Positions 47,346 through 63,975 of a stretch of 64,000 nt of DNA are shown one piece after another. Source of the stretch: Paralichthys olivaceus. Lineage: Eukaryota > Chordata > Actinopteri > Pleuronectiformes > Paralichthyidae. How positions within the stretch are numbered: position 1 is the first letter of the stretch; each line of letters starts with the position of its first letter. The stretch lies in assembly GCF_024713975.1 (NCBI RefSeq), contig NC_091106.1:14348501-14412500 (forward strand). Reading direction: 5' to 3'. The position numbers and the translations under genes were made by a program. Under the pieces are notes generated by a model that did not search any database, was not told the DNA's origin, and saw only the letters and a list, made by a program, of their open reading frames with translations.

Positions 47346-50300
47346 GTGGCTCTGGAGGAAAAAAATTTAAATCTGAAATATGCAGAATCATCAGAATCAT
47401 TATTCGGCCTTGAGTTTGACACCTAAAAGGTTTAAACAGAAAGTCATCGATATAAACTGGATGTGTGGAAAGAAGTGTGCATAGAGTTTAATTGCAGAAA
47501 TTGAAGGACCCTGCATTTCTGAAGCTTGATCCATCAGAGTCAAAGTATCTCGTCCTCTGTTAGTTTCATTTAGACCATTTAAGCAATAGGCTTCCTCTAT
47601 ACTCCTTAATTTTATGCAAGTGGACCTCATATATATCTCTTCATTTGATTATGCACAAGGTTACAGGACAAAACCTGTTCACATAATGTTTCTGCATCAA
47701 AGTGATCAGTGACACTAGTTCACATGCAGGAACTTATGAGGGCTGAAAATGATCGACAGTTCATAGTTTATGTCGACGCAGGACTGTGTTTCACTTTCAC
47801 AGTTAGTTACACTGAACTGTAAAGTTTCATTAACGTGTTTAATCCTCTTTGCATCACTGCACATATACGTCACCGTCCTCTACACACACACACCACACAG
47901 CAGCCATGCGTCACACATGATCTGTGCCGACCGACCCAGACAGATGGCACATCGGATATGCCTCGGCCAATGGCATTGTTCATTTGACATAATACCCAAA
48001 CACTGGCATCCTCTCCAATATCCCTTCCTGCCGTCACTTTATGATCAGATCACACAAACCAACCCCCCACCCGTCCTGTCCTCCATCCCCATGTGTTGTC
48101 TGCTATGACGCAAAGAGATCACTTCATCTCTGCCCGGACCCGCTTGCATTGACTTAAGATGAGGGTTTTAAACGACTGGCTGAGATTGGCAGCTCTCATT
48201 TCTGGAGCGCAGGAGCACATCTGCTTTCTTGCCTGTTCAGATGTGTTTATATGATTTGCGTGTGAAGGGATTGATGTTGCTTTTTGTTGTAATCCTTATC
48301 TGCTGTGTATGCAACATGACAATGTTAGTTCTTTAAACACTCCGTCTCAGCTATTTAAGCACAGAGCACATGAATTGTATCTTTATTCAGCCATATCCTG
48401 TTTTTCCTCCTCGCACCTTAATGTTGCATATACTTATTTTTTGTATTTAATCCAGGACAGACGTTTCATTTATTTTACCTTTCAGTTCCTCCATTAGTTC
48501 AAATGCACGCCAGGATTTTTGAACTCATGCATGTGCATTCTTCTCTCATTCTAAAGCATCAATGCACTTTGCAACTTTCAACTCTGTAATCCTCTATCAA
48601 ATAGCCCAGTAATCCTGGCTGCCTCTTACATGGCATAATGCATGATCATTTGGGCAGCTCTTCATATTCCCTCATTCCACCTCAGAGCATTAACAGCTTG
48701 TCGTCACAAAACTTCTTTGTGTGTTTGACATTTCGGACCTAAAATCTGGGTTTGGTTTCTTAAAGATCCTTGGGGACTGCACTGTGCGTGAAAAAGCAGC
48801 ACATGTCACATTTGTGGGAAAGCATTTGTACGTATAATCTGATTTAAATTCATGGGGCAGATTTTAATTTGTCAAATAAAATCCACTGTGTGTCATCATG
48901 ACCATGTGAAAGTTTGCTGCCAGTCGCACACATCTTGTCTGTCCAAACTAGATCAGGGCAGATGGATTGTTGATTTTTCGCCAACGATGCAATATTGTAC
49001 AAAGATGAACAAGTTGGTCCTTGGATTAGAGAGGGTAATCTGCAAATTTAATGTTTTATGTAACTTTGAAAAAAGTGTGCATGTCTGGCTGGTGTCTACA
49101 CAAATACCCAGTGAGTGGTTCAGTGTAACTTAGTAATTGGTAGCACTCACACTGACATCAGAGCAAAGGAGGGTAAAGGGGCTTGTATCAGGATAATACA
49201 TATTTGCAGAAAATTTGCTGAGGTTGAATTTAGAGCAAAAGCAAACAGAATAGGGTTGTGTGAAATTTACATATTCTGCTTGCTCTACTTGAATATAACA
49301 TGTCTTAACACGAGTTACACCAACTTCTCTCCTCTATTGTGTAAATGCAGATGAACAACAATTAGACCAAAAAACCATTGACACTAAAACCTACCTCAAG
49401 TTTGTCTCTCTCCTGTGGTCCAGGCAGCTTTTGCTTTCTCTCCAGAAGAGGGCAGTTCAGTACATTTGCAGACTCATTAAGGAGGTGTTATTCTTAAGGT
49501 GTTTGTCTCGTAGGGCCTCCAAGGCAACAGACTATTAACCTTAGTGACCTGGATTCAGGATGTTGTGCTCGTCCACAGGTCAGTGCCTCACCAGGTTTCA
49601 AATACCAGACCAATCTACTGACTCAGTTATATGTGTGAAAAGAAATTAGTGTGTAACAGAATAAATGGTCTGCTCATTATTGTCAATAATCCATCTGCAT
49701 AATAAACCACGATTCAAATTTGGAAATGGAAAGAATCCATTGATATATGGACAATTTGCTTTCTAAGACTTCACTACATTTATGAGGTGAATATTGTTCT
49801 GTGTACTTCAATATATATATTCCTTTACAGATTTAGCTACAGCTCTGGAAAATCATGAGACCAGCCTAGATCCTGTATACCAGCCATTTAACAGAAATGT
49901 TGTCAGTAGTTTAAATGATGGAAAAAAAAACTGTTCAATTTATTTTAACATGTAGCTATAGTTTGACCAGATAAACTGATAATCTTGCAGTTTTTTTCTA
50001 GAGCTATACATTTCAGATTAAAGATAAAGTGATCAGTTTGTAAAAAATGGTGCACTGGGATATATTAAACTACCTAAAACAGTATAAAGCAGCTAAATCT
50101 GCTTCAATTCAACCATCTACAACATTAAAATACTGCTTTTGTTAATGCATTGGTATGGTGTATTTATACTGTTATATTGAAACATACAGTGACTAATTCA
50201 TATTCTAGTGATAGCTTTAGCCATGGTCCCCATGGTTTTGTAGCAAAAACCTTTTTACTTTTTAATTCACAGTGTGGTGATACTATGTGAGTAAAAAAAA

Positions 50301-51084
50301 CGTCTTCCACTTTATAATTACAAATCATGTACTTTAATTGGTGGTGATTTCAATACAATTGTTGACAGCAAGTGTTTTTTGATAACTGAACACTTTTTTG
50401 ACTGAGTGAAACAGATACATCACCACATACACAACTGTAAACAAACTGCTCTTTAAACACTATTTGGTGCTTTGAACCTGCGCAGTGGGATTAAAAGTCT
50501 TCCTAACGTGATCACTTTGGTCCCCTTCCCTCCGGCTGATCTCTTTAGTCAGTTCAAGTGTCATGAAATCTCTTGTAAGGAGCTTGGTCGGATCCCAAAT
50601 AAACAGTCTCAGTTGTGGAAATCTAAATGACTTCATTCCAGACAAGGGATCTTTCCTGACGAACTTTGTGTTTCAACAAAGGGTTTAAAAAGGTTTGGAT
50701 TTATCTGTTGTAAAATGACAAACAAACTTCAACCAGGAGTTAAATTGAAAGCATGAGTACAGTGTTTTTTTCCCATTATACAGTATGAAAATAACATCAT
50801 TAGTATACAAGAATTTTGCCGTTAGCTGTTTTTAGTGTATTTAAACTCTGAAAAACACACACGCACACACACTTGTACACACACACCCACACACGCACAC
50901 GTGCACACACACACAAAGCACAATTGAAGATTGAGTTCAGTCTCGACTTTGACAAAACAATTTCATCTCAAGATACATTTACTGGCTGTTCTGGAGCTTT
51001 TGATCATTAACTTAGTGTCCATTCAACTGTCAGAAATGGGGACATTTTCATTTCTAAATTCTATTTGTCTTTTTTCATACACAC

Positions 51085-51370
51085 ATAAATATCAAATTTT
51101 TTTCATCAAGATCCATGAATTCCTCTTTTGGAAATTAGTGAAAACGGCAATAAAATCTTACAATGTTCAAGAAAGATGTTATGGTTTCTTCCGTGACTCA
51201 AACCACATCCTTCCACCAGTTTTTGTGGTAATCCATCCTGTAGTTCTTGCATAATCATGCTTACAAACAAACCAACCAACCAACCAACCAACCAACCAAC
51301 CAACCAACCAACCAACCAACAAACAAATGGACAAGGCTGAAAACATAACATGTGAAAACCTCCTATGTGG
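51085..51370 (-). repeat. Dispersed repeat family A, copy 4, with (CCAA)n expansion
   Basis: Reverse-strand family words are visible: CATCAAGATCCATGAATT, CTCAAACCACATCCTTCCAC, AGTTTTTGTGGTAATCCATC and TTCTTGCATAATC. An internal tetranucleotide run (ACAAACAAACC then CCAA units, about 51263-51325) follows, and GAAAACATAAC. The tetranucleotide replaces the TTTGTTTG-like region of other copies. It ends about 100 bp before the cdhr1 stop and may be in its 3' UTR. Confidence 0.65.
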
Positions 51371-51465
51371 AGTTAATGTTTGCAGACTTGCTCTGCTGGT
51401 AAAGACCCCAGAAGCTGCTGGACAGCTACTAAATGGACCCTGAGGTGAGATTGTTTCATCAAGCA

Positions 51466-54400
51466 CTATTGGTGTGAGAGCATCCTCTTCTGCTCCAGCC
51501 TCAGCTTGAGCTCTGAAACTAGTGCTTGGTTCATAGTGTCCTCTCGGGTATTCACCGGCCTTTTCTTGGGTTTGGGTGCCACTGTCGCAGAGATGGTGGG
51601 TACGGCCCACTGCCTCTGCCCTGGGATGTAGGGTGGTGGTGGAGGGGGCAGAGATGGGGCGCAGGGTGGTGGGGGCCAGTGTCTCACAACGCTGTTGACA
51701 TTGTTGACATTGTTGACGGTGTTGACGGTGTTGATGTTGTTGACGTTGTTGTTGTAGTTGATGTTCTCCACAACGACCTCGGGCTCCCGCTCTTCCTCCT
51801 CAATTCTGAACTTCTCTCCGGGGGTTTCCGGCTCCTTGAAGGGGTTTTTGATGTTCCAGGTGTTCTGTTTCCGCTGCCTCCTCCTCACGCGGCGGTTAGG
51901 CAGGATCCGGTTGGACTTTTTGTTGCGCATGAATGTTGCCGTGGAGATGATGACAGTGACTACGACCATGAGACTAATGACACCACCAAGCATGCCTAGG
52001 ATTTGTAAAGGCTTGTTTCTATTCTGCATTATAAATGATCCCCAAGGCCCCCCCTTGAGTTGAGTCTGTAAAAGAGCACAGGGAGAATTCACATCCATGG
52101 GACTGAAGTCATAGTCTGACACACAAAGATTCTTCTTCATATTGTCCCGTGTAATGTCGCACTTTCACTCATTTGGCTGAAATGTCATGTGAGGTGCAAA
52201 ATCCAAAACGTGTATATATATTAAGAATAAAAATACTGCAATGTACTGCATATACCTGTACAAAACCTTTTTTTTCCATAGTCTAGAAAATGTTCAAATT
52301 AAACCTTTTTCAAATATCTATTTTATCAACATTTACTATAATATAATTTTGTCTGGACAAGATCAGAGAGGTTGACCGGGAAACCCATAACAGAGACCAC
52401 TCATGTCTATAGATATGAATTTGATGTGAAAAGAACTAATCTGTTTGTTTTGGTCGTGGTGTCATATTCAAAACATGGAAAAAAGAAAATAGTTTATGTT
52501 GTGCTCCTGTACTCTTTTACAGACACAGCCTTGTTCTACTGCAAAAAAGAATCACTACAAATTCTCAGTACCACAGAGTAAAGACAACAGTGCTACTGTG
52601 CTGATTCTCTCAAGGCAAGCTTCGTTTATGGCACGGGCCTCCTTATAATCTTTCTGATCTTGCCCTGAGCTTGTACACGGGACTTTTTCACAGAGTTCCA
52701 GTAAATAAAAGTTGAAATGATGATTGTCAGTGAAATGGCCAAGGTGACAACGGTCAAACAAATCCCAAACACGGCCCCCGGACGTTTCCTTAGGCCCAAG
52801 AAGTACGAGAAAAATCTCGATTTGATCTGCAAACATGACAATTGCATTTGTGTGAGACTCAGACTCAATAACTGGTGAAACCTGAAATCTGGGAAATTAT
52901 GAAAAGTCTTATTCTGCAGAAAAGCTGCACCTTCCTGCACATTAATCAGATGGTGCAAAGAAAGTATGCAATTTTTTGGAATAAAAAGGCAGAATCTCTT
53001 CATTACTGTTATATAATTCCCTACAACAACAACTATAACACCTGCAATAACATTAAAGCAGCACAAGCTATAAAATGATGTTGATGAACTAATGGTTGCA
53101 AACTCTATTTTTCACATATTTAAAGTGTAAAACCTCAGAAAAGGATTCATCACATCACATCTAACTGTTAAACTGTTATTCATGTATACTTGGTCGTAAC
53201 TTACAGCCTCTGTGATGTCGATCTTGACGACTGCAGTGGTGCTGAAGGATGGCTGGCCTCGGTCTCTGGCCTGCACCACCAGGGACCAGGTGAAGTCCCT
53301 CTGCTTGGTGATGTTCTGAATGATGGCCATTGACTTGATGTAGGACTTCAGCACGATCTCGCCAGTGTCGGCGTCGATGTCGAAGATGTTGTTGTCCGGC
53401 TCAGCTTTCATGATGGCGTACTCGATGACATTGTTGGGCACCTCTGCGTCGTCATCTACGGCCTGCGGAAATGTATTGAATTAAAAACAACGATTTGAAC
53501 ATTATTCAGACTTTCACTTTTTCTTTTAATCTCAAGGGGAGCACATACCTCTATTCTCACTGGCGCTCCGATCACCATCGTCTTCTCGAGGAAGTTGTCG
53601 TTGAAAGCTGGTGGGTGGTCGTTCAGGTCGAGCACCGTCACAAACACCTCAGCCAGGCTGTACTTCCCCTCTGTGTCCTCCGCCTTCACGTAGAAGTTGT
53701 ACTTGGATCTCACCTCTGCATCCAGGCTCGCCCACGGCTGCGTGTAGATGATCCCAGATGTGGGCTGGATCAGGAACCTTTGAATTGAGATGTAATTCAG
53801 AATATTTATTTCAGATTTATCACATGCAGGCGATCGGGTGCATGTTTGTTGTTAGAATTAGTTGAACAGTGGCTTTAGAGGTGTTGCTCAGTGGATGATG
53901 GAGCATTCAAGATGGTTGCACTTTTTATGTGACCTTGGGATTCTAATGCTTGATTTAATGTGCAAACAAGTGAGTGTCTTTCTAAATCTATAAAATAAAA
54001 GGGAATATGTGTATTTCGCAAAACATTGAACTATCCCTTTAAATCGTCACTTTACTGTTCTATTCAAATACATTTATAAGACTTGACCATTAACATACAT
54101 AGCAAGAATGGAAGTGGATCGTTTGACTGACTGACTTGTTTAGTTACCCTTGTAGGTCAGTGCAAGGTAGTCAGTACAGCCGCAAAGTCTATTTTCTCCT
54201 CCAATCCCATTACGGGATTAACGAAGGCAGAGGATGAGCAGGCAAAGATCAGGACAGCACGGTTCTGTGTACACTGAAGTGTTTCTATACAAGATACTAT
54301 CAAAATACATAACATGCTATATTTTTTTGTATCCTTTCTGAGACTAATCTGAGGTGACACAGTTTGAAAATTGTTCTGAGCAAACGAGTACCCACTAAGC

Positions 54401-57400
54401 TAAAACTGTTCCAAATCTCTCCCCTCTGCTTATTTTGGAAATCCTACTCCTGGATGCCATGTGACATCACATATCTCCACTAATTCATTGCTACAGAGCT
54501 CAAAATCTCTACTTAGAAGTCCAAAAATACTCTTTTTTCCATCTACATTTCATCACACAAAGCAAATGGTTCATAGGAAACAGCCAAGAGAGACTAAACA
54601 CGACCCTACAAGGATGTACACCTGAAGATAGGCACTGTGCATTGCAGATATATCTTTGGAATGCAGATCAGGTATTAACTGTGCTAAATGTAGCAGATCT
54701 GTGTGATTCTAACAGCAGGGACATGAAGTGAAAGCTGGAGGTGAACTGTGTGTTATCACTGAGAGAGAACAGTGACCGCTGAGCATTTTTTCTCGCTGGG
54801 TTTAGACTCTGACTAGAAATCTAATAAAAATCGAGATGAGAGAAAATGCCAGTAAATCCTCTGGGGGACCAGGGTGCTTAGGTGCAATAAACTGAACCAT
54901 ATTTCTCATATGAAAAACAAATCTGCTGTCATGTTTCTGCACAGTTTTCAGGCAGCTGCATTTGATTTTCATACACAGTAGTTCTGCATTAAAATTACAC
55001 TTTCAGACTCAGATCCATCTTTTTTGTAAGTTATATTTAAATATAATAAAACTAATCAATGTCCAATTGATACTACAGATAATGTGTAAAGATCTGTGAT
55101 TTTTTTAATGCTTTTTTTTAATTTGCCAGGACATCTCCACCTGATTTTCTCTACAAATATGACAATATGACACATTGACATGATCACAACACATGCTGCA
55201 GTAAATTAACACGTGAAAAAAGCAATCTGACACTTTAAAACGTGGTTTGGTTGATATCTATGATTATCAAAACATACTGCTTATGTCTTCTGTTGTGAAT
55301 GTCCTATTTTGTTTGGCACGGTGGAGCAGTGCGTAGCAGTAATGCCTCATATTATAAAGTTTCCTGGTTTGAATCCCAACTTAGCTAGGGCCTTTCTGTG
55401 TGGAGTTTGCATGGGCTCCTCATGTTTGTTTTCTCCAGTAAATCCTGGTTCCTCCCATAGTCTGAAGACTATGCCAATGGGTACAGGCAGTGTTGCAAAT
55501 ATTCATGTTTGTGACATATTTGACAGATTAACATTACAATTGTGGTGAAAAATAATTTTGACTGTCTGTTCTGCTGTGAACTGCGAGCAATGTTTATATG
55601 TCGAATATGTCACAAACATACTGTAGTTACAACACTCCCTTTACCCATTTAATAATAAAAGCACTTCAGAGTCTCTGTTGACTGAATCCATTCATTTGTT
55701 TTAAGAGCGTAAGATCATGTCTTGATACCACATAACCCAATTTTATTCAGAACCACAGCAGACACATGCGTTGTAATATGCTGGATAGGTTGCCTGCTGT
55801 CCACATGGATTGGCTCCAGTTCCTCCAGCAGCCGTCAAAAGGATAGTGAGTGTAGATAATGGATGTATATGTGTTATTTCAAGGGCAAGATGCCTTTTAA
55901 ATAAATGCATAGATAGAATAATGGTGGTATGTGGATATGAGGAAGTTGAAGTAGGCTCTGGGTCCTTTCTGTCAAAGGCTCCACATTGTCATACTCACAG
56001 TTCAGCCCCGGACCCATAGATAGAGTACTTCACTTCACCCCAAGGTCCTGAGTCTGGGTCTGTTGCCTGGAGACAAACAGAATAGACAAATAATTGAGAA
56101 TAGAATATGATTGAGTAACTTAAGCCAGGGTGATCTGAATGTTCTCTTTAATGGTTTTAGTGCAACATATAGCTCAGTAAGATGAGGCATTGTTTTGGAT
56201 TCACGTCAGGTTAATGAGATATGCTTCTTTTCTCTTTTCTTAACAAACCCCAACATGTTGAGGTTGCATTGAAGACTCTTTCTTAAAACTGAATGAGGGG
56301 AGAGAACTGTCTACCAGCGTGGAGTGAAGTGAATGAATCTGTGCTGGTTTGGAACATGATGTTACTGAGGTCAGCTATAAAAAGACGGATATTTGATGTC
56401 ATAGCGAACATCATCATGGGCATCAGCTAATCTGTCTGTCTGTCGCTGCAGGGATGCCTGTGTGCCATCTCCGTGTGTCCAAGGTCACTTGTTGGCTGTT
56501 CTTTTATCTGATTGAAATTGCCTGGGATCAAGGCAACGAGCCGCTGTGGTGTTCACGCAAGGGGAGGATTTATTAGTGAGCCTCCCTGTTGCTTTGAGCC
56601 TCTGCAGGGCTGATATTAACTGACAAGGGCGAATCGTTTTTAAACTAAATGGCACTGAAAAAAAAACATGTTCACAGTGTTCATGTTATTTCTGTGATGC
56701 AGCTGCATGTGCTACCAAGCATTAGAAAAAAAATCTGGGAATTTGATGTTACACAACTAAATGAAAGTGATAGCCATCTGGCAGCTTACCTCGCCTAGCT
56801 TTTATCTACATGTTTTCATGTATTATCCCAACCCTCCGAGCCCAAAAAGTCCACATTTGGAGAATTAATGGGCAGCTTGGGCATTTTGCTAAAATCAACA
56901 TTCCTCTTTAGCTCAGAGTGACGTACATTGGTGATCGCAAGTATTTTTAGACAGGATGAACGCTCAACTCACCGTGACTGACACCACGTTGGAGCCGCCG
57001 GGTGAGTTTTCTGGAATTCGGGCGATGTAGTAATCTGAGGAGAATTTGGGAGCGTTGTCATTGGTGTCCAGGAGGTGGATGACAATGTCTGCTGTTGCGC
57101 TGAATTTCTCTGGAGTATCAATCTCAACTGCCAGGAGCTGAAGGAGAAAGATTCGAAATAAATAAAATAAAAAAGATGCAGGATGTGTAACGCTGCTATC
57201 TGTTGTTGAAATTCAGTGGCCTACCGCTTCAGCATTTTATAGTTTGTTGTTGTGTTTTCTTATTTGCAGTTGTCATTGTGTTTTCTGTTTTGCACTCTAC
57301 GGCCACATTAGTTAAACATATGCACTTGTAATGCATTTCACCTTGTATGTGAGAAAATGGTGCTTCTCGTAGTCCATGGCGGCCGAGTCCTCCACTAAGA

Positions 57401-60400
57401 TCGTGACCTGGGCCTCGTTCAGCACAGTCTGAGGAACGACTCGCAGCATTCTTCCTGGTCCAATCAGCCTCAGATTGAATTTGGCGTTGGCGCCCTGCAA
57501 GAGCACAACACGTGTCATCGTATTATTTAAAATGTCTCATCTGGGAAATCGTAAAAAAAGTATATTACACATGCATGAACCTATTTATAGTAAGCTGCAT
57601 TTGCTACAAAGCTATCACAAACAAGCAGACGCAGAGCATAATCCATGTCGTATATAGTCCATTCAATCAATATAAAAGCTCTGTGTCCTTTCAGTATTAT
57701 AGAAATGCAATAGGAATCAATAGGATATCATTGGCAGCGATGTATTTCTTGATGAAACGTAATATGTGTGGACTGAGAGAGTTCACCCTGATGTTGTAAC
57801 AGTATTAACAGAGAACACATTTGGTGAGCAGCGGTTGAGGCTCATGCAAGAAGCTGGAAACACAGAGACTTGCATAAGCCGACAAATGGCACAGTTAGCG
57901 TGAACCTTTTAATTTGTGTTGGCACACTCTCAAGTTCATGCAATTTTAAAAGGATTGTCTGTGATAATGGCCGGCTCAGAGCGATTCCACAGACAGAAAG
58001 GTGGACACCAGCGTGCACTCAGTGTTGTGGCACAACGTCTGTTGATTGAATCAGTAGATAACAATGTAATTTGTAATTACGTGAAAAACAATCACTGATC
58101 TGCTCTCCTGGCTGATGGAGGCACTTTTAAAACATCCCTGCACATTAAAACGAAACACATTAATGATCTCACCCACCTGATCAGAGTCATTGACAGTGAT
58201 TTTCAGCCCTCGGAGAATCTCTCCCTCCGGTGGATGCTCGTACATGGTCAACTCAAACATGTTCTGTCGGCCGTGCTCTCCATAGAATGTAGGTGGGTTA
58301 TTGTTCAGGTCCACCACACGGATCACCACCGTGGTTACCCCGTAGTCCATCAGTCTGCCTTCAGGACTCACTTCTGAAGCCTGGAAACATAAAGTCAAAA
58401 TTATGCCCATACGTGTCTCCTATGTGGTCAGTGGACACATGAGCTTGTACGAGATTTTATCTGCCAGTTTCACTATAATAGTTCAACCTTGTGAATCTTA
58501 TTTTTAATCTATATCTAGTCCAAATAAATTAGAAATTCCCTTGTTCATCCCTCCAGATGTAAAGTGAATGAGGGTCTGTTTGATTAAGTCTTTTATTTCA
58601 TTTTAGGTATTTTAACACAAATTCAAAGATAATTTAAAAGCAGCAGAATTATTTTTTTCCCTTGATGAAGTGATACAACTTTATACTTCAGAGAATGTAC
58701 AGTTTGTCTAGTTTGATGTCTGAATGACGTGCGACTCACCCTGACTTTAATATTAAAGATCTCTCTCTTCAGATACATAGGGAAAGTCAGCAGAGCAATA
58801 CGTCCGCTTGTTTTATTGATGCTGAAAACACCATCATCACCTGCAGAGACACACACACAGATATATGAACATATTTCTGAAACAGAATTACTTCAATTTT
58901 CAAATCTTCTTTGAATTAAATTCTTACCATCATCAAAGGAGTAACGGATTGGATTTGGATTCCCCACATCACCATCTTTTGCGCTAACACTGAATATTTC
59001 AGATCCCTGGAACAAAATGTAATAATTAATAGTTAATCAGTAGTGAAACATGACTGATAATTAGTTGTTGAGTTATCATTAGAAGACCAGGATGCAGAGA
59101 TGACCAGTTGGTCATTAAATTATACCTGCAATATTTTTCTCCAAAGAGTCGTCTCTGACTCATCAAAGCTACATGAAATGTCAGGTTGCTAATTATTCTC
59201 CTCTGGATAAAAGTCAGAATGTGTAATCTTTCTCCTCCAGTGACATTTTGTAACCAAGGAGATTAGAGAAAAAAGAGAAAAGCTTTGAAGAAAACAGCAT
59301 CGACATTACTGTGAAATGTCAGCAATTAAAACTGTGTGAGATATGCTGCTTATTATTTATTATGCAAAGAAATAAGTTGCATTCACTATGTCAGTACCTT
59401 GCTATGCTGCGATTGTTTAATATGATGTTATAAAAAGACTAAAATCGTAGCAGAAGGTCACTGGAAGATGTTTCCATACTCACAGGCATTGAGACTTCAT
59501 AAACGTAGCCAAAATAGGGCGTCCCGATAAAAGATGGCGGAGTGTCCTGTGCATCGATCACATTGATCGTCAGAGTAGCAGAGGAAGACAGAAACTGCTC
59601 CTTGCCATTAAAGTTACCACCACCGTCCTAGAAGAAAGGAAACGTGCATGTTAAAATGTCATAGAAGATTGAATCCCTGAACAGGAGTAGTGCACATTTA
59701 TTTGAGATTTTATTTTGTTATATTAATGTTAATAAACAATTATTAACACATATTAAAAAGGTAAATCATCAAAACACGTCTTCCCATCATGAGATCCCCC
59801 ATCAATGGGAGGATCTCTTTTAGCGCTGTTTAAATGTTTTTCAATTGGGACACTAATCATGTATGTTTGTTTTTCTTTTTGTATTCTCAAGGCGTATTTC
59901 CATCCGCAAACCCGATTTTGGAGGTATTTTCAAAACCTGCATTCCTCAAGGTGATACAGGTTATACCGCTTTCTTCTTCTGTCTCTTTTTTGGTACATTA
60001 CTAAGTTTCTTGGAGCAATGTCACCACCAACTAACTGGGACAGCATAAAACTGTCACAGTTTCCTGTGTTGTGTTGTATTATTAGTTTCCCAATAATGAC
60101 ATTTATACACAACCAATCTGCCACTGAAAAACTGTAACAAAACATTTGTTCTGCTAATGATCATTAACTCCACAGAGTTCCTTTAAAAGTATTCTAGAAC
60201 AGAAACCCTGAGCTATACCAATATGTACAGGTAATAAACAATACCTTCAGGAGGTTATGTTTTCAAGCCCGACCATTTGTTTGTGTGTTTGATAGTTAAC
60301 AGGATTACGCAAAAACCACTGATTTTTGCAAAACTTGATGGAACAAGTCAGAACCCATAACATTTTGGCATAAATCTGGACAAAGGATCGAAGAATCTAA

Positions 60401-63400
60401 ATCTTCTTTTTTGTGAATTTTCTGTGAAAACAAATAATGCAAAGAACATTATTACACATTATTCTGCAATTGGGGTGATGATTTAATGATGGGTATTGTT
60501 TTGTTGCCTTATTTACGGGGGCTAGATTGAATTTTAAGGCGACTGTTGGGCCTTGGTAGAGTTATGTGCTCTAAGTGTCACTCTAGTTACCTTTGCAATG
60601 ACAGTCACAAAGTGTGTCTTTGTTTTCTCGTAGTCCAACATTTCTCCAGATCTGATACGAAGGACACCACTGTGTCTGTCAATGGCAAACAAAGTGGACG
60701 GAGGATTCTGTGACAGGGAACAGAAGAAAAGCAGGATTTAAAAGTACACACAGAAAAACAAATACAGTCACATGAGTAAAAGCCTGTCACTGAAACCCCA
60801 TAAACCCCATTTACAACCCAAGAGTGGTCAGATGGCTGCATAAAAACACTCAGTAGCCTCTTGATTTAGGCCACATCCTCTATAAAGTCTATCTCTTTGT
60901 CCATCTGGATGTAAAGAAGCCATATGCTGATGGACAGGGCAGGCAGGTGATAGTTGCTGGGTCCAGATGTGCACCGCCTCACTCATCACTGTTCAGCTTG
61001 GGCCAGCTGTTCTACGGTCCTAATAGTCCAAAGTGCAAACTAACATTCCCCGGCACGCACTGCCACTGCAGCCCTCTAAGCCTCCAATACTTGACACAAA
61101 TGTAATTATGATTAAATCCCCATCGGCATAACTAAACCATCATATTCACTCACATGCAAAAGAGAAAATCTAAATGATTTTATTGTCATTATCAGCACAT
61201 CTATATATACTTTACATGACGTGCAGATTAACTTCAGATGGGGCCAGTTTTAGCCGGTGTTTCATATTTTCAAATGTCTCATCTGTGCTTGTTTGAATGC
61301 TGTTTTCATTAAATACACAAGTCAGAAAGGATTGGATATGAGTGGTTGGTATTTGACTCCTGTCATGTGATACCTGGAGGTAGAAGGTGACTGAGCCCCC
61401 TGAGCCTGTGTCTCTGTCCACTGCCTCGACTCCATAGATGCTGCTACCAGACTCAGTTGTCTAAAATGTGCAACATGGAAAATAACCCAGGTCACAACAT
61501 ATAAGGTTTGAATATTAAAAATATACAAAAGATATTCACTTTGATATATTTTAACAGTAACAAATTGTCTTTACATTTTGCTTGTTGAGAATCACAGAAA
61601 TAAAACATTTACTGCATCTTTGGCTTAACATACCTCCAGCACATCAATGATCGCAGGCATGTTTTGGAATTCAGGCTTCTCATCGTTTGCATCCATTACA
61701 AATATTGTCACTCTTTCCACAACCTGAAAAGAAGATATAGAAGGAGATGATATTCATGGTCATATTATTTTGATTTAATATCAAATGATATAAACACACA
61801 TGGAACGAGCTGTTCACACCTTGCTTCTTCCATCAGTGATGCTCACAAGAACGTCAATGGAATCTTGTTTCTGAAAATGGAACAGTTAGCATGGATCATA
61901 TCTTAGTTTCTTTAAGAATAAGTCTAAATTAACAGTTTAATTGATTGTTTTCTGTTGTTAAAATTTACTTCTCTGTCCAGCTTTTCCACCAAAGTGATGT
62001 TTCCAGATTTGGGGTCGACCCTGAAGTACTCTTTGAAGCCAGGATCAAATGAAAGGCCGTATCTCACCTCATGGCCTTCAGGGTCTGTGCCATTGAGACA
62101 ATAGATCTGTGTACCTAAAGAAACACAACATTTTAAACAAACATAGTTCAGGAAACAAAGTCTTTATGTGTTTATATAAAAAGAATGTGAATCCTAAGTG
62201 TAATCAGATAATATAATATAAGATAAGATAAATAACAAAGAGAACATTAGCACATTAGCCATGAATTGCATGAACAAAAATGAATATTGCACATTTATCT
62301 GGTGCGGTACGTTAACAGTAAACTGTACAAAGCAGGATACTGGTGAAGGAGAAGGAGAAGGAGCAGAGGGACAGCTGCACCACATTCACAGCCAGCAAAC
62401 TGCTCCTGACATCCACAGGTGGAACCAGCAGATGAACGTCTGTGTGAGTACGCACAACTCCACACAACATCTGTTCATCCATCAAAGACTGTTTAACATC
62501 CTGGACTCTCAGATGCTAGCATACAAAACACACCATTTTACTGTTTGATTGTTCCTCTGGCCTATCTACCAATCAGCTGTTTGCACTAAACGTCCTGTGT
62601 GTCAGAGGTGAGTCTCACCGATGGGCGTGTCCTCTGACAGGCTGAACAGGGCCAGGTTCCCGTTGTGGCTGTATGGTCCATTGTCGTAGAAGTAGGGGGC
62701 AAAGTCTGCTTGAGCTGTGGGCGGAGACACGAAAACACAATTGAGTGGTTGAATGTTATAAAGTGAGACTAGGCAGGCTAAAAAAAAAAAAAAAAAAGCG
62801 ATTGCACAAATATTTTGTATATTCAGATTCAAGCATTGACTGCATTCAGACTCGATGAAGACAGACTTTTTGTTAGTTTTTGTGTAACAGGCCATAATAA
62901 CTTGGCATAATGTATCTACTATTAACTACTTTAATATTAAATATTAATGTGTGTCTACCAGCCTAAACAGCACAATCACGTCCATACTGTCAGTACAGGT
63001 AAGATGCATTAAGAGATTTGTTTTCATGGATTTAATTCTTTAACTTCGTGAATAATGTAAATTGTTGTAAATTAAGTAGTTCCAAGCAGAGGGCAGAAGA
63101 TAACATTTTCTCTGAGCCTGACTGGGGTAGCTTCTTCCATCTCACTCATTGTCACACTGGGTCTGAACCTATAGGACGACTTAACATAGTGAACTAGTTT
63201 AACCCAGGAAAGCGTGAAAACAGCTGCTTATAGGGACCAAATTGTCAAACACGAAATCGTAACTTTGTGAGATCCACTATCCTGGGCGTCCCTATAACAC
63301 CAACCATTAATCAAATGTCATGACACTGAGCGGTTTTGCTGTAATTGCTTTATGTTTTCTGATCATTAACCAGAAGCTTTAGTTTTGTTTGCTAATGTTA

Positions 63401-63975
63401 GCATTGATGTGCTACTACTAACATTAGCTCCAACTATTCTCTAATAGTCAAACTGTATTTAACTTTAGCAATTACTTATTAAAGGTGCCTTAAACACTTG
63501 CGTGACATAAGCTGAGCCCTACACTGCGCATGCGTCCTTTGTTTTCTCGGGCACTTTGACTGGGATTATAGGTGACGTCAACCTCCGGAGATACCTTTTC
63601 CATACATATAGACAAAAACAATGCTATTTGTAATATCACAGTAACATGGACTGTGATTTTCTTTTATTTATATCAATAGTAAGTTCATGGTACCTTTGAA
63701 ACTAAATTCATGAATTTTGAATCAGTATAACAGACCTACAGAGTCAAATACACTCAAATAAAAGCAAAAACAATGATTCAACTGAAAAGAGAATTGAAAG
63801 GATAAAATGTATATATAGTCTTCAGCCAAGAAGCCTTTATATGTATCTGAACACTATTTACAATCAGAGCAACATCAGCCCACTGAAAGCAGAGAATCAA
63901 GAGGAGAAACTTACCAAAGCAGGCCTGAACAAACACGAACACCTGTGGTAAATGTAGAATCTTTACATTCTTCAT
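51466..63975 (-). CDS. cdhr1: Cadherin-related family member 1 (photoreceptor cadherin)
   Basis: This single-pass cadherin at the photoreceptor outer-segment base is needed for disc formation. The 17 exons in transcript order are 63915-63975, 62619-62714, 61969-62114, 61820-61870, 61634-61723, 61374-61460, 60591-60707, 59484-59627, 58928-59006, 58740-58840, 58177-58380, 57342-57494, 56973-57137, 55999-56066, 53549-53777, 53205-53462 and 51466-52065, totalling 2649 bp (882 aa plus stop) in phase. The signal peptide is followed by [20 protein letters not shown]. Cadherin calcium-binding linkers are [10 protein letters not shown] (128), [10 protein letters not shown] (about 239), [10 protein letters not shown] (347), [10 protein letters not shown] (466) and [10 protein letters not shown] (about 567). 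The TM segment is at about 704-728, followed by [20 protein letters not shown], an Asn-rich repeat, a Pro-rich stretch and [10 protein letters not shown]. An in-frame upstream ATG at 63993 would add MTSFFR. I chose 63975 for the shorter signal peptide. Large intron 53778-55998 holds a split SINE. Confidence 0.95.
52626..52826 (-). CDS. cdhr1: Alternative transmembrane/terminal exon of cdhr1
   Basis: A 67-codon open segment begins after a good acceptor (CATGTTTGCAG) in phase 0, exactly the phase left by the donor at 53205. It ends with its own stop. It encodes a basic juxtamembrane stretch (FLGLRKRPG), a hydrophobic helix at about residues 701-725 of the alternative protein ([17 protein letters not shown]) and a short basic tail (KKIRR-type, ending RRPVP). 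It aligns to the canonical TM exon 560 bp further downstream ([31 protein letters not shown]). Using it gives a 749-aa protein without the long Asn/Pro-rich tail. Whether it is spliced in was not tested. Confidence 0.7.
   Translation of the reverse strand: MKSRFFSYFLGLRKRPGAVFGICLTVVTLAISLTIIISTFIYWNSVKKSRVQAQGKIRKIIRRPVP
55312..55870 (+). mobile_element. Diverged, split tRNA-derived SINE in a cdhr1 intron
   Basis: The 5' part (55312-55500) has GGCACGGTGGAGCAGTG, a box B-like GGTTTGAATCCCA, GGGCCTTTCTGTGTGGAGTT and TTCCTCCCATAGTCTGAAGAC. This is the head of a widespread fish SINE. Its tail appears 280 bp later (55775-55870: GATTGGCTCCAGTTCCTCC, AAAAGGATAGTGAGTGTAGA, TAATGGATG). About 250 bp of unrelated AT-rich sequence separates the two. 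The borders are approximate. Confidence 0.65.
60250..60590 (+). repeat. Dispersed repeat family A, copy 5, ending at a cdhr1 splice donor
   Basis: Family words run in order: AGGAGGTTATGTTTTCAAG, CATTTGTTTGTGTGTTTG, AACAGGATTACGCAAAAACC, AAACTTGATGGAACAAG, AGAACCCATAACATTTTGG, GGCGACTGTTGGGCCTTGG, AGAGTTATGTGCTCTAAG and GTCACTCTAGTTAC. The last word runs into the donor of the exon at 60591. Confidence 0.7.

Follow-up and report, generated by a model that had tools for sequence, protein, structure and literature searches.

Homologous alternative membrane exons at the end of cdhr1 in Paralichthys olivaceus and a conserved element complementary to a splice site suggest a short-tail/long-tail switch

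Alternative exon choice with the help of RNA pairing, and a second end of the CDHR1 protein, have each been described before. Human CDHR1 comprises 17 coding exons (PMC2806159), and its isoforms of 859 and 745 aa are identical over 680 residues (PMC6201214). In genes of the Dscam type, tandem-duplicated alternative exons are selected with assistance from RNA pairing (PMC8042237, PMC6027157), and in Drosophila Nmnat RNA pairing couples a splicing choice to polyadenylation. Human pairs of conserved complementary regions (PCCRs) constitute a third kind of system: this long-range pairing near splice sites is generally obstructive, 43.2% of the PCCRs that overlap polypyrimidine tracts also block the acceptor, highly used splice sites show a depletion of PCCRs, and the cited cases include an alternative terminal exon of FGFR1OP2 that is looped out (PMC8052449). 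The subject of this report is the end of the cdhr1 gene in a window of 64,000 nucleotides from the fish Paralichthys olivaceus (contig NC_091106.1, positions 14,348,501 to 14,412,500), where two membrane exons, named A and B, follow a shared donor at position 53205, and where a 26-nt element in the presumed 3' untranslated region (UTR) of exon A is complementary to the 3' splice site of exon B.

The cdhr1 locus resembles each of these systems in part. It shares tandem-duplicated alternative exons and a candidate RNA pairing with the Dscam type; however, it has two exons only, both terminal, with one helix and no competing selector set. The likeness to Nmnat lies in an RNA pairing that would couple splicing choice to polyadenylation, with stems of 19 and 16 bp and loops of 423 and 644 nt in the two gene copies of the fish, but Nmnat is another gene in another phylum, and the fish arms are the competing exon's own 3' splice site and a site behind the stop of the alternative exon. 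The likeness to the human PCCRs is the pairing over an acceptor; CDHR1 is named 0 times in the main text of PMC8052449, a count that does not extend to its supplementary catalogue. In the accessible passages of the open-licence PMC literature we found no mention of duplicated membrane exons or of RNA pairing in CDHR1, with no search aimed at duplicated membrane exons.

Both terminal exons are in phase 0 behind the shared donor, with the acceptors TTTGCAG|ATC for exon A and TTTTACAG|ACT for exon B, and each encodes a single, strongly hydrophobic segment, whose best Kyte-Doolittle mean over 19 residues is 2.65 in A and 2.71 in B. The tail of exon B includes an Asn-rich repeat, a Pro-rich stretch and a conserved C-terminal segment of 11 residues, the last two of which are absent from A. 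The encoded peptides were compared in four pairs, made up of the two exons A and the two exons B from both gene copies. The resulting local alignments score 74, 76, 70 and 83 and span 47-64 residues. The control, 58 bacterial membrane segments together with their flanks, yielded no score above 42, and in every pair the observed score exceeded those of all 2000 part-wise shuffles. Three of the four pairings are gap-free over 47-59 residues, the fourth has 64 columns with a gap near its end, and all four have in common a proline, a glycine, an IST motif towards the inner end of this segment and a basic stretch behind it. A profile-profile match of two-row profiles of A and B gave an E-value of 1.2e-6 (probability 90.8). 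Finally, the exon A peptide has five matches in the 588-Mb genome, namely itself (E 6.7e-37), exon A of the paralogue (5.3e-15), the two exons B in third and fourth place (0.15 and 0.25, weak when taken alone) and a fifth match with an E-value of 8. Judged by these comparisons, A and B are homologous tandem-duplicate membrane exons, the similarity of which goes beyond shared hydrophobicity. A tandem duplication of the membrane exon had been proposed in a preliminary description of this DNA, and the alignments, the genome search, the profile match and the common phase support it. The same description regarded exon A as a duplicate of the membrane exon that had lost the long tail; the homology stands, but since both gene copies already have both exons, the duplication may have run in either direction. 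A Pfam search of the four terminal peptides with E-values up to 1 returned only a sub-threshold Orai-1 match (E 0.049) for exon A of the paralogue, which we took for membrane-helix noise.

The second cdhr1 locus of the same fish was found on contig C21 by a DNA search of the genome, and it contains homologous shared exons in addition to both terminal exons. The segment downstream of cdhr1 in the window (46061-37563) also matches C21 behind the second copy, in the same order; both loci thus belong to one larger duplicated block. This agrees with the genome duplication of teleosts, which dates to about 300 million years ago. It also agrees with the two zebrafish homologues, cdhr1a and cdhr1b (PMC13090022). 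Between the copies of P. olivaceus, 35 of the 65 codon pairs of exon A keep their residue (nonsynonymous divergence dN 0.365, synonymous divergence dS 1.36, dN/dS about 0.27), as do 89 of the 173 aligned residues of exon B (dN 0.396, dS 1.26, dN/dS about 0.31), the ratios being rough since dS is near saturation and infinite in one cadherin exon; four cadherin exons or exon parts are more constrained (dN 0.096-0.166). By this measure exon A is constrained as a protein about as strongly as exon B, and the comparison of synonymous and nonsynonymous rates previously suggested for this exon, which we ran between the paralogues, points to purifying selection. The intron before A aligns at shuffle level only, its best block being equalled or exceeded in 127 of 200 shuffles. 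The frame, splice phase and protein of exon A are kept in both copies, and the alternative end is, on the sequences, close to certain to be real as a conserved exon; we infer its use in this fish. The tail switch on the cadherin that the preliminary description had envisaged draws support from the A-B homology, from the selection on A and from the fact that the C21 copy, too, has both exons. The duplication that gave rise to A and B would predate the separation of the two gene copies, as part of an overall explanation that we regard as probable. No relative of the exon B protein was found among viral contigs, a collection without vertebrates in which absence says nothing.

A self-comparison of the locus yielded nine inverted pairs, one of which is 22 nt long and 91% complementary; its first arm (52061-52082) is the 3' splice site of exon B and its second arm (52506-52527) lies about 100 nt behind the exon A stop. 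The corresponding element in the C21 copy is located 65 nt behind the stop. The two copies were compared without gaps from the A stop to exon B and against 200 shuffles, whose best blocks have a mean of 10.6 and a maximum of 14. Two blocks top all of the shuffles, the element (score 23.5) and the exon B acceptor (score 15, a 15-nt identical run), and the next blocks (12.5 and 11) are inside the shuffle range; in the 1 kb behind exon B the best block is again at shuffle level (114 of 200). At the B acceptor, 13 of the 15 positions from -17 to -3 are identical between the copies, as against 4 to 9 of 15 at the 16 other acceptors (mean 6.06, sd 1.44), where the longest run is 5. A search of the 588-Mb genome for the element, with 24 fixed bases and up to two mismatches, gave these two sites and no others. 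The element has 0 matches in each of the genome and viral contig collections, which are non-vertebrate, so that absence says nothing, and Rfam at the gathering threshold gave 0 matches over 51400-53300. Two other roles for the element were considered and rejected. As a 5' splice site its GT scores -4.16 in the C21 copy, versus at least -0.04 for 16 real donors (all donor scores are matrix scores), and as the acceptor of an antisense gene it has no open frame shared by both copies in the next 200 nt of the other strand.

The element and the exon B acceptor form a contiguous stem in both copies (19 bp in the window and 16 bp in C21), with one G-U pair in each. As a control, stems were sought in the 1195 nt upstream of each of 32 acceptors, 16 per copy, with G-U pairs counted half; one exon start in this set was misplaced by 9 nt and one exon was left out. 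The two B acceptors rank first and second of the 32 (18.5 and 15.5), the next-best control stem scores 12.5 (13 bp), and two 14-bp stems with four G-U pairs score 12. The window B acceptor is also first by duplex energy (-34.9). Across the 544 acceptor-like sites of both regions, a stem of at least 15.5 occurs at three, two of which are the B sites. Folds of the region in the two copies give the 16 core pairs a mean predicted pairing probability of 1.00 and 0.99. Conserved complementary arms are thus present, one of them at a splice site, as would be characteristic of an RNA switch, and the complementarity in both copies suggests a built-in switch between a short and a long tail. A weaker, shifted pairing of GAGCACA in the element with TGTGCTC in the acceptor, seen by eye in both copies, is possible and would leave the AG free.

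In the model that we propose, cdhr1 has two alternative terminal exons, both derived from a single membrane exon by duplication. Joined to exon B, donor 53205 would yield the long-tailed cadherin. Joined to exon A instead, with the transcript cleaved and polyadenylated directly downstream of that exon, it would yield a short-tailed, membrane-anchored cadherin with an unchanged ectodomain, another juxtamembrane stalk, another helix and a basic tail some 24 residues long. Which exon is used would be governed by a cis RNA helix, in which the element in the 3' UTR of A masks the polypyrimidine tract, the AG and the first two exon bases of B. With the helix standing, exon B would not be recognised, and A would be spliced and polyadenylated; with the helix unformed, or opened by a protein on the element or by polymerase kinetics, B would win. 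The element contains UGUA, the motif to which the polyadenylation factor CFIm binds, and a protein bound there could promote the 3' end of A and also keep the helix open. In the C21 copy, AATAAA is located 19 nt behind the element and exon A looks terminal rather than like a cassette, its best possible donor scoring -1.04, compared with at least -0.04 for the 16 real donors. Conserved human pairings of this kind are described as generally obstructive (PMC8052449), and masking is therefore the plainest model. Overall, alternative terminal exons with an acceptor-masking helix are the explanation we favour with reasonable confidence, and the helix-based switch is a strong hypothesis drawn from the sequences; we infer where A is polyadenylated, that the helix forms in cells and which way it acts. 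A broader reading, to which we give slightly better than even odds, is an ancient either/or arrangement, present in both copies and possibly across vertebrates: one terminal exon would carry in its 3' UTR the antisense of the other's splice site, and a single RNA helix would decide between the two membrane anchors and tails. The complementary element is the new part relative to the preliminary description and, we think, the more interesting one.

Several observations weigh against this explanation. The C21 acceptor is only third-equal by duplex energy (-27.5), one control being better (-28.5) and one tied; the third acceptor-like site, at about 7763 on the minus strand of the window, is unrelated and scores 19.0, above exon B; and 2 of 2000 random places reach a stem of 15.5. 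The two copies do not differ in any of the 16 core pairs, so that this comparison, between two sequences of one genome, offers no compensatory change, and the near saturation of dS loosens the estimate of selection on A. The window copy has neither AATAAA nor ATTAAA between the A stop and exon B, only variants such as CATAAA, and three GTs in the same interval, with scores of 1.84, 0.13 and 0.04, equal or exceed the weakest real donor. The 3' half of the element (GGAGCACA; 52500-52507 and L009:7093-7100) is conserved although the 16-bp core of the C21 copy does not include it, so that something else presumably preserves it as well, such as a poly(A) upstream element, a protein site or the shifted register of 7 bp with TGTGCTC. 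Moreover, exon A might just as well be suppressed by a duplex next to its poly(A) region.

The last point leads to a helix acting in reverse, which would hide the upstream poly(A) element of A or loop out its 3' end and so protect the long isoform. Long-range pairing has been proposed to suppress premature polyadenylation (PMC8052449), and the element ends 1 nt (window) and 19 nt (C21) before candidate poly(A) signals; however, such a helix covers the acceptor of B itself, including the AG, and should hinder the very splice that it is meant to protect, so we regard this possibility as unlikely, if worth keeping in mind. Slightly less likely still in our judgement are terminal exons without any RNA switch, the element being the upstream polyadenylation element of A and its complementarity incidental. 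Such a role would agree with the C21 copy, where UGUA precedes AATAAA by about 41 nt and this signal stands close behind the element, and with the conservation of the 3' half outside the common helix core, but it leaves unexplained why the acceptor of B, alone among 17, stands out as conserved between the copies, and why complementarities of 19 and 16 bp join the two conserved blocks. Purifying selection on the A peptide, including its membrane helix and basic flank, and the annotation of a human protein isoform of matching length both speak against exon A as a poison exon that is spliced on to B and triggers nonsense-mediated decay; a poison exon would need a donor in both copies, and the C21 copy has none comparable (best -1.04), so that this reading is very improbable even though the A stop lies far before exon B and the window copy offers its three GTs (best 1.84). 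Least probable of all is an unused, decaying relic: no standard poly(A) signal stands between the A stop and B in the window copy, but the frame, splice phase and protein are kept in both copies, dN/dS is as for exon B, and a conserved element follows the stop.

The layout of the two ends is close to that of the human gene, the unique ends being 179 and 65 aa in human, 180 and 65 aa in the C21 copy and 199 and 66 aa in the window copy. Human isoform 2 (NP_001165442.1, 745 aa) branches after 680 residues and adds about 65 unique ones, where the fish protein has 683 + 66; the likeness is one of position and length only. The exon A end is probably the same alternative end as that of human isoform 2 and thus probably already annotated in human, and the earlier caution that a shorter human isoform might make this end conserved rather than new fits the two layouts.

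Independent modelling of the gene in the window gave a shared part of 683 aa, open in frame and in phase 0 up to the donor (GCT|GTAAGT), with five Pfam Cadherin stretches (E 3.4e-64). The full proteins of the model have 749 aa with exon A and 882 aa with exon B and a single stop each, which bears out the coordinates, phase, stops and lengths of the preliminary description. The cadherin repeats, the one membrane helix and the 17 coding exons (16 shared and one terminal) are those of a CDHR1 gene; the identification as cdhr1 is based on layout, length and earlier naming. In the window copy, exon B carries an in-frame 9-nt repeat at 51687-51769, rich in Asn, Val and Thr, with seven overlapping register copies listed; opposite it, the C21 copy has a gap of 25 columns in the protein alignment. 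A (CAAC)n / (GTTG)n microsatellite is located behind the exon B stop (51273-51328). No AATAAA occurs within 1.5 kb behind this stop in the window copy (49966-51465), where two ATTAAA stand at about 1.13 and 1.20 kb, and therefore the 3' UTR of the long isoform may exceed 1 kb. The coordinates of all features are collected in Table 1.

Table 1. Positions of the cdhr1 features in the window and of the terminal exons in the C21 copy
Feature	Position	Strand	Remarks
Exon A, alternative membrane exon	52626..52826	-	66 aa + stop; short basic tail
Exon B, canonical membrane and long-tail exon	51466..52065	-	199 aa + stop
26-nt element TGTCTGTAAAAGAGTACAGGAGCACA	52500..52525	-	presumed 3' UTR of exon A; 25/26 identical in the paralogue
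Pairing arm of the element	52524-52506	-	predicted to pair with the exon B 3' splice site
Exon B 3' splice site	52064..52082	-	covers the polypyrimidine tract, the AG and two bases at the exon start; 19 contiguous pairs with the element, one G-U
CATAAA, candidate poly(A) signal of exon A	52493..52498	-	presumably a weak signal variant; one base behind the element
Shared exons of cdhr1 (16)	53205..63975	-	from the signal peptide through the last cadherin repeat; 683 codons in the gene model
Signal-peptide exon of cdhr1	63975-63915	-	followed by 15 further shared exons
Exon A of the C21 copy	L009:6813-7010		65 aa unique end
Exon B of the C21 copy	L009:7750-8292		180 aa unique end

A conserved second membrane end gives one ectodomain two possible stalks and two tails. 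PCDH21 is cut into pieces of 95 and 25 kDa (PMC7083943), and therefore the different stalk of the A form may change shedding; antibodies against the C-terminal domain, such as those applied to mouse in that study, should miss such a short form. The proposed helix would make the isoform choice testable with a few minigenes. CDHR1 is a vertebrate photoreceptor gene linked to blindness, and if the element is conserved in human, variants in the last CDHR1 intron would gain a possible reading.
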